NCBI RefSeq assembly: GCF_024346315.1 | Contig: NZ_JAGQCS010000001.1 | Span: forward strand, 124,001-188,000 | DNA from: Cyanobium sp. ATX 6F1 | GTDB lineage: Bacteria; Cyanobacteriota; Cyanobacteriia; PCC-6307; Cyanobiaceae | Reading direction: 5' to 3' | Length of the DNA stretch: 64,000 nucleotides | Part shown: one piece after another, positions 49,052-50,182 of the stretch | How positions within the stretch are numbered: the first letter of the stretch is position 1 | How the letters are laid out: every line of letters starts with the position of its first letter | The notes under the pieces: model-generated | What the model was told of the DNA's origin: nothing | The model's database searches: none | The model's input: only the letters and a program-made list of their open reading frames with translations | Position numbers and translations under genes: made by a program

Positions 49052-50182
49052 ATGATCCAACGCTTCCGGAGCAGAGTTCGGCCCCGGTCACACGAGCGGA
49101 ACCAACACCCGTGGCGCACGCCACTGCTGGCACTGGCGCTGCTGATCAATGCCTCGGCGGCGGGCTACCGGTTCACCGAAGGCTGGGACTGGGGGGACTG
49201 CTACTGGATGGTGGTGGTCACCTTGAGCACCATGGGCTGGAGCGACGGCACCACCGCCGCGATGCACACGGGCGGGAGGGTGGTCACCACCCTCTCCCTG
49301 GTGGGGGGCCTGGTGGTGGTCCAGTTCGCGATCCAGCGCCTGCTGGGGCTCTCCCAATCCGGTTACTTCCGTCGCCTGCGGGACAACAGTTTTCGCCGCT
49401 CATTGCAACGCATGAACGACCACGTGATCCTCTGCGGCTATGGCCGCATCGGCCGGGAAATCGCTGAAAAGCTCTGCTCCGAAGGCATCCCTGTGCTGGT
49501 GGTTGAGCTGGAGCCGGAGCGCAAGGCGGCGGCGGAGGCGCGGGGACTGCCCGTGCTCCAGGCCGATGCCACGCTCGATGAAACCCTGCGCGACGCCGGC
49601 ATCCACCACTGTCGCAGCCTGGTGGCGGCCCTCACCAGCAACGCCGCCAACCTCTACGTGGTGCTCAGCGCCCGCGGCATCGCCCCCAACTGCCGGCTGA
49701 TCGCCCGCTCCGACAGTGACCAGGCCGAGCGCAAACTGCGCCTGGCGGGGGCCGACCAGGTGGTGAGTCCCTACGTGGCCGGCGGCAGGGCCATGGCCGC
49801 CACCGCCCTGCGGCCCCTGGCGGTGGATTTCATGGAACTGCTCGCGGGCTCCGATTGCGAAGTGGAGGAGTTCCAGCTCAGCAGCCGCCCGGAACTGATG
49901 AAGGGCATCAGCGGCCGCAGCCTGGCGGAGATGCAGTTCGGACGTCACAGCGGCGCCCTGGTGCTGGCGATCCGCTCACCGGAACCCGAGGACGCCGAAC
50001 CCTCCAGCCTGCAGGGCAGCACCTACTCCAGGGGTGGCAGCACCTTGATCGCCAACCCCGGCGGCGATGTGCGCCTGGCGCCTGGGCAGTTGCTGGTGGT
50101 GCTGGGCAGCAAGGAGCAGCTGGAACGGTTCGAGGCCCTGCTGGGCCCCGCCCTGGAGGGCAGCGACCCGATGGCCAGCTGA
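49052..50182 (+). CDS. TrkA/RCK-domain potassium channel-like protein with atypical filter
   Basis: This 376-aa protein has two hydrophobic helices around a pore loop (residues 24-37 and 77-92), then an RCK domain ([20 protein letters not shown], Rossmann glycines at 129-134) and a TrkA_C domain. The overall plan is that of a 2TM ligand-gated potassium channel. The filter, normally TVGYGD, reads TMGWSD (60-65), with Gly replaced by Ser and Tyr by Trp. Potassium selectivity is therefore doubtful. It follows the GT9-like gene by 29 bp. Confidence 0.8.

Follow-up and report, generated by a model that had tools for sequence, protein, structure and literature searches.

The window analysed here, a stretch of 64,000 nucleotides from Cyanobium sp. 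ATX 6F1, encodes a channel-like protein in which the K+ channel filter TVGYGD is replaced by TMGWSD. The altered filter belongs to one of two pore types, A and B, that occupy the same gene in related cyanobacteria, and trees of the protein conflict with its pore type. Our best explanation, held with moderate confidence, is a core-genome, MthK-like cation channel that is tetrameric, conducts with some preference for K+ and is gated by its RCK domain. Such a channel would have a remodelled outer filter and an exchangeable pore. Features of the locus are listed in Table 1.

Table 1. Features of the channel gene and its neighbours. Positions are those of the window.
Feature	Positions	Strand	Basis
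ispD (start approximate)	47379..48050	-	TIGR00453 E 2.6e-67, PF01128; 66/80 loci
Upstream neighbour gene	48150..49022	+	beside channel in 69/80 named loci
2TM-RCK channel-like protein, type B pore, 376 aa	49052..50182	+	ORF and translation, Pfam; MthK and GsuK closest solved structures
TM1, residues 22-43	49115..49180	+	AlphaFold2 helix, block pLDDT 85-89
Probable exchange tract, residues 22-102	49115..49357	+	maximum-descent permutation tests, sliding identity
Pore helix, residues 47-60	49190..49231	+	AlphaFold2, MthK alignment
Filter motif T60-M-G-W-S-D65	49229..49246	+	sequence; aligned with MthK TVGYGD
AGC GAC Ser-Asp two-codon block, missing in type A homologues	49241..49246	+	codon alignments; AGY Ser codon in 49/49 type B
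TM2, residues 73-103, GG at 85-86	49268..49360	+	AlphaFold2
RCK N-lobe (TrkA_N), Rossmann motif GYGRIG...E152	49424..49771	+	Pfam
RCK C-lobe part (TrkA_C)	50030..50146	+	Pfam
fabG (start approximate)	50245..50982	+	TIGR01830 E 8.7e-100; 68/80 loci
groEL	51386..53053	+	TIGR02348 E 8.6e-241; 54/80 loci

The window protein has 2TM-RCK architecture

Pfam domains were found at residues 29-97 (Ion_trans_2), 125-240 (TrkA_N) and 327-365 (TrkA_C) of the window protein. Together with an AlphaFold2 model and a Foldseek match to MthK, they define two membrane helices flanking a pore loop, with an RCK domain after them. This bears out the two-helix-plus-RCK arrangement proposed in the earlier note. The AlphaFold2 monomer has a mean pLDDT of 77.6 and a pTM of 0.47, and the pLDDT of the filter block is ~60. 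No usable difference was seen between type A and type B models, both of which are monomers with a filter-block pLDDT of ~60. In an alignment of 39 sequences, G85 and G86 of TM2 are invariant. The same is true of the Rossmann motif GYGRIG...E152, except for the nearly invariant I133.

The best sequence match (E 4.6e-22) is MthK, the Ca2+-gated K+ channel of Methanobacterium thermoautotrophicum, which likewise has two transmembrane helices and one RCK domain. MthK is also the best fold match (Foldseek E 1.2e-20), with a low TM-score of ~0.4. It differs in having the filter TVGYGD rather than TMGWSD. We take D184, E210 and E212 to be the primary Ca2+ site of MthK, and a feature of that channel rather than of all 2TM-RCK channels. 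In the alignment, the equivalent residues of the window protein are A193, R219 and D221. The site is not conserved and MthK-type Ca2+ gating was rejected for this reason. The best profile match (E 1.2e-30) is GsuK, a nucleotide-activated K+ channel from Geobacter that has a pore, RCK domains and a nucleotide-binding Rossmann fold. GsuK differs in carrying two RCK domains per subunit, and in having a filter that aligns as TLGFG and lacks the SD insertion. SynCaK (sll0993) of Synechocystis is presumably a 2TM-RCK member of the same family as the window protein. Published work describes it as a K+ channel of cyanobacteria that depends on Ca2+ (PMC13099474).

Pore types A and B are forms of one gene

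Homologues with E <= 1e-60 are present in 357 of 400 Cyanobiaceae genomes, and nearly all of the 357 have a single such match. The gene neighbourhood (the upstream gene, ispD, fabG and groEL) is common to both pore types. Hence, the pore types are forms of one gene at a single place. The neighbour counts in Table 1 were made over 80 named loci, and include several contigs too short to reach all neighbours. The gene immediately upstream had no Pfam or NCBIfam match; by eye, we take its product to resemble a glycosyltransferase-9 protein.

The filter of the window protein is encoded by acc atg ggc tgg agc gac, specifying T60, M61, G62, W63, S64 and D65. Alignment with MthK, which is free of gaps in the filter, pairs W63 with Tyr62, S64 with Gly63, D65 with Asp64 and W52 with Tyr51. 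Thus, the earlier note was right to read Trp for Tyr and Ser for the second glycine. The motif departs from the canonical signature TxG[YFL]G[DE] in both respects. It agrees with the description of GYX-type proteins, which are K+-channel-like pores with the second filter glycine replaced. A sequencing, assembly, annotation or reading frame artefact, for which we found no support, is refuted by recurrence of the motif in independent isolates and MAGs; we consider this explanation almost certainly wrong.

Filters were typed, using alignment columns, in 246 distinct sequences from 291 loci, a subset of the homologue-bearing genomes. The set comprises 149 Cyanobiaceae sequences and 97 from other cyanobacteria, the latter including at least three that are more distant and possibly paralogues (L152-L154). 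A copy of the window gene (L032), other channels and a KtrA-like protein (L162-L164), and exact duplicates were excluded before counting. The Cyanobiaceae filters are GYGE (61), GFGE (31), GFSD (35) and GWSD (14), with rare occurrences of GYSE (2), GFSE (2), GYGD (2), GFGD (1) and GYRE (1). The type A pore has the sequence I-G-[YF]-G-E. Type B, found in 49 of the 149, is [LM]-G-[FW]-S-D with a loop two residues longer. The longer loop occurs in all 49 SD sequences and in no other Cyanobiaceae sequence of the set. The motif of the window protein is conserved among its homologues; TMGWSD or TLGWSD is found in 14 distinct type B sequences and TMGFSD or TLGFSD in the other 35. W52, which corresponds to MthK Y51 and Shaker W434, is Trp in all 149.

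The earlier note regarded the second glycine as nearly invariant. This fails within the family, since the residue is kept in only 95 of 149 Cyanobiaceae and 52 of 97 other cyanobacterial sequences. In the latter, the alternatives are S (15), M (15), A (7), L (4), T (3) and Q (1). The homologues with Met or Leu at this position include L143, L149 and L150. Conversely, 245 of the 246 distinct sequences retain the first filter glycine, and the acid, D or E, is present in all 246. The most degenerate member seen, L292 from genome G443, has ISDSD at the filter position and so lacks the first glycine too. According to the earlier note, a normal filter at another aligned position in the same clade would argue against its reading. 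Members with GYGE or GYGD do exist, but their motif falls in the same aligned column, and type B too is conserved.

As a control, we examined channels outside the family in ten genomes. There were 36 Pfam Ion_trans_2 matches, and 30 loci were inspected. Eleven of these were the family or its paralogue and three were unreadable. The remaining 16 all kept the second glycine, so its relaxation is a trait of the 2TM-RCK family at hand. Two other channels of the window genome have the sequences LGSIGYGVLHP (L163, contig 4; presumably KirBac-like, by eye) and TTVGYGDILP (L162, contig 6).

Codon alignments with type A relatives suggest that type B arose by insertion of two codons, AGC GAC, after the aromatic codon, rather than by a plain Gly-to-Ser change. 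All 49 type B sequences use AGY for the SD serine, against a background of 62% AGY in the same proteins (1997 of 3207 Ser codons). This fits a single origin of SD and subsequent spread. We also considered whether residue 66 might supply the filter glycine from a displaced position. Glycine directly follows SD in 14 of 14 GWSD members and 7 of 35 GFSD members; the other 28 GFSD members have P, E, A or S. Because it is missing from these 28, the residue is unlikely to act as a filter glycine.

Uncharacterised GYX filters are already in print, and the filter of the window protein is a further variant. In protozoa, GYX proteins carry GYSD, GYSE or GYRD as the filter; they have homologues in some prokaryotes, whose function and selectivity are stated as unknown (PMC3283738, citing Kuo et al. 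2005). As in the window protein, the second glycine is replaced, partly by Ser. Conversely, the portion of that paper available describes no two-residue insertion for GYX channels. The same source treats protozoan GYX channels as likely paralogues of canonical channels, whereas the cyanobacterial variant takes the place of the canonical form at a single locus. A literature search, with most subscription papers outside its scope, returned no paper on filter variation, the SD insertion or pore exchange in this cyanobacterial family.

The type B pore is under purifying selection

For 12 close pairs of type B sequences, pore dN was 0 to 0.047 and dS was 0.15 to 0.50, giving dN/dS of 0 to 0.27. Purifying selection of this kind argues that the pore is functional. 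Pseudogene decay was rejected on the same values. The earlier note had allowed that the protein may be non-conducting; insofar as this means decay, it is unlikely. A non-conducting protein with a maintained role is considered below.

Pore type conflicts with the tree of the RCK domain

A FastTree phylogeny built from 155 sequences after masking the pore columns has 10 switches between states A and B. There are eight switches in an IQ-TREE phylogeny of the RCK part. The latter was made with 50 sequences (26 type B and 24 type A), chosen from 93 in the freshwater clade after removal of those at least 93% alike, and with four marine rows picked by hand. This RCK tree pairs the window protein (L001, type B) with L002 (type A) as its sister, with support of 100/99. 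Similarly, L045 (B) is sister to L089 (A), with support of 100/100, and L138 (B) to L117 (A), with support of 99/82. An AU test on the RCK tree rejected a single type B clade (lnL difference 220.75, p 5.8e-9).

L001 and L002 have high identity in the RCK part. At residues 61-80, protein identity between them is 28%, and the type B proteins compared reach 55-75% identity to L001. We applied a maximum-descent test with L001 as the child of L002 and five type B donors. The counts were 0, 0, 0, 0 and 1 of 5000 permutations, and 10, 2, 5, 0 and 0 of 5000 with residues 58-78 masked. Across the five donors, the limits of the candidate tract were 22-36 (start) and 96-102 (end). For L045, with three donors, the counts were 2, 0 and 0 of 5000, and 3, 11 and 2 with masking. 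Exchange was unsupported for L138 (1955, 486 and 141 of 5000) and L128 (1149, 1348 and 69 of 5000). Hence, part of the pattern may be due to convergence or very short tracts. In the converse test, with type A children (L002 and L089) and type A donors, counts were 0-3 of 5000 at all sites and 5-1487 with the motif masked. The tests thus do not tell the direction of exchange apart.

Similarity at the DNA level was compared with that expected from the RCK domain. Three segments (pore helix, TM2 and linker) show excess similarity that tracks pore type, each with 0 of 2000 label shuffles; TM1 does not (192 of 2000). There was a small effect of pore type in RCK_N (6 of 2000) and an effect of opposite sign at residues 241-300. 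For synonymous codons, the pore-type signal is clear in TM2 and the linker taken together (0 of 1000) but absent from the pore helix (135 of 1000); a signal is also present at residues 181-240 (2 of 1000), beyond the proposed tract. The shuffles ignore relatedness and these counts are uncorrected for the number of tests.

The type B pore of the window protein, on a type A-related RCK domain, most plausibly reflects a membrane-domain exchange spanning approximately residues 22-102. We read the sequence comparisons as indicating exchange in two pairs, L001/L002 and L045/L089; elsewhere, convergence or tracts of very short length may be responsible. The altered filter thus seems to have moved between related species. 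Pore type would then be an exchangeable module, and the window genome most likely received or kept a type B membrane domain. The probable route is homologous recombination over the RCK domain held in common with a type A relative. Phage carriage was considered as a vehicle and set aside; no relative was found in viral_contigs (profile A1; 16 pattern matches, 0 confirmed).

A less likely alternative is that convergence alone, without recombination, produced types A and B several times over. Two of the four type B/type A pairs tested, those of L138 and L128, lack a mosaic signal. Moreover, among the 15 sequences from other cyanobacteria with Ser at the second glycine position, 11 use TCN codons and the rest AGY, so that loss of this glycine is repeatable. 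However, convergence requires a linked block (residue 61, the aromatic, SD and the two-residue loop) to arise or vanish some 8 to 10 times. The uniform AGY codon of the 49 type B sequences, and the mosaic signal that persists in L001 and L045 when the motif is masked, also argue against it. Exchange could be taken further, and we offer the following as a doubtful extension. Picocyanobacteria would keep two pore alleles at one core locus and swap the whole membrane domain as a cassette, with the outer filter as the selected trait. Type B would be K+-selective without the second glycine, a novel geometry of the outer mouth being held by Ser-Asp and a Trp-Asp bracket. If so, the drivers might be, for example, ionic conditions, or phage or peptide toxins acting at the outer mouth.

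Conduction, selectivity and gating

The predicted layout is TM1, pore loop, TM2 and RCK gating domain, probably assembled as a tetramer. MthK-type channels have a tetrameric pore and a ring of eight RCK domains. The inner filter (T60, M61, G62 and aromatic residue 63) appears ordinary. The Ser-Asp insertion would rebuild the outer mouth, comprising site S0 and the ring that widens during C-type inactivation of other channels. W52 and D65 may replace the Trp-Asp bracket of voltage-gated channels. In MthK, Gly63 forms S0, and filter inactivation has been linked to the contact between Asp64 and Tyr51 and to the filter width at Gly63 (PMC10274084). Gating would be by the RCK ring. Since the Rossmann motif is kept and the MthK Ca2+ residues are lost, the likelier ligand is an adenine nucleotide, as in GsuK, which is activated by ADP and NAD+ (PMC3510474). 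By analogy with SynCaK, our guess at the physiological role is that the channel would control membrane potential or release K+.

The second glycine of GYG has been treated as necessary for K+ selectivity, mostly on the basis of disease mutants and engineered channels. Here, orthologues at one conserved locus have any of G, S, M, A, L, T, Q or R in its place, one defined insertion type occurs on several backgrounds, and type B forms are under purifying selection. A conserved cyanobacterial channel without this long-presumed essential residue is a natural test of the glycine's role. The pairs L001/L002 and L045/L089, whose RCK domains are close relatives joined to an A or a B pore, are ready material for addressing its part in selectivity, inactivation and gating.

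Evidence from other channels bears on whether the window protein conducts K+. The hERG double mutant K525N&G628S, in which the second glycine is likewise changed to Ser, is reported to act as a potassium channel whose Na+ permeability is limited (PMC11380439), and a GFS filter can therefore carry K+. This counts against a non-selective monovalent cation channel, similar to NaK or NirBac, that would have lost its outer K+ sites along with the second glycine and would use its RCK domain to gate the flow of Na+ and K+. Retention of T60, G62, the aromatic and the acid, unlike in NaK or NirBac, also counts against it. We nevertheless give this reading some credence, as a minority possibility. NirBac has a K+ channel body with odd filters and passes Na+, K+ and other ions, and the NaK filter has only two sites (PMC4607889; PMC9822992). 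In addition, homologues with M, L, A, T or Q for the second glycine suggest that strict outer geometry is dispensable. The window protein resembles NirBac in combining a conserved channel body with a modular filter segment that is altered; NirBac differs in its KirBac body, filters unrelated to TxGYG and demonstrated lack of selectivity (PMC4607889). A non-conducting sensor, or dominant-negative subunit, reusing the pore and RCK domains would agree with hERG G628S, which inhibits permeation and does not conduct (PMC4389246), and with the statement that second-glycine mutations abolish K+ channel function (PMC3283738). We consider this distinctly unlikely given the strong purifying selection on the type B pore and the conserved TM2 glycines. 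For a dominant-negative subunit in particular, the single match at E <= 1e-60 in nearly all homologue-bearing genomes leaves no close paralogue seen to modulate. We favour an RCK-gated channel that conducts with some K+ preference and whose outer filter behaves differently from the canonical one.

Truncated and interrupted homologues

In some very small genomes (G004, G011 and G034) the reading frame of the homologue ends right after the RCK N-lobe. The open frames of L157 and L158, from G004 and G011, are 250 and 241 aa long and have lost the RCK C-lobe. The homologue L159, from G035, gives three separate match pieces after residue ~264, probably due to a frameshift.
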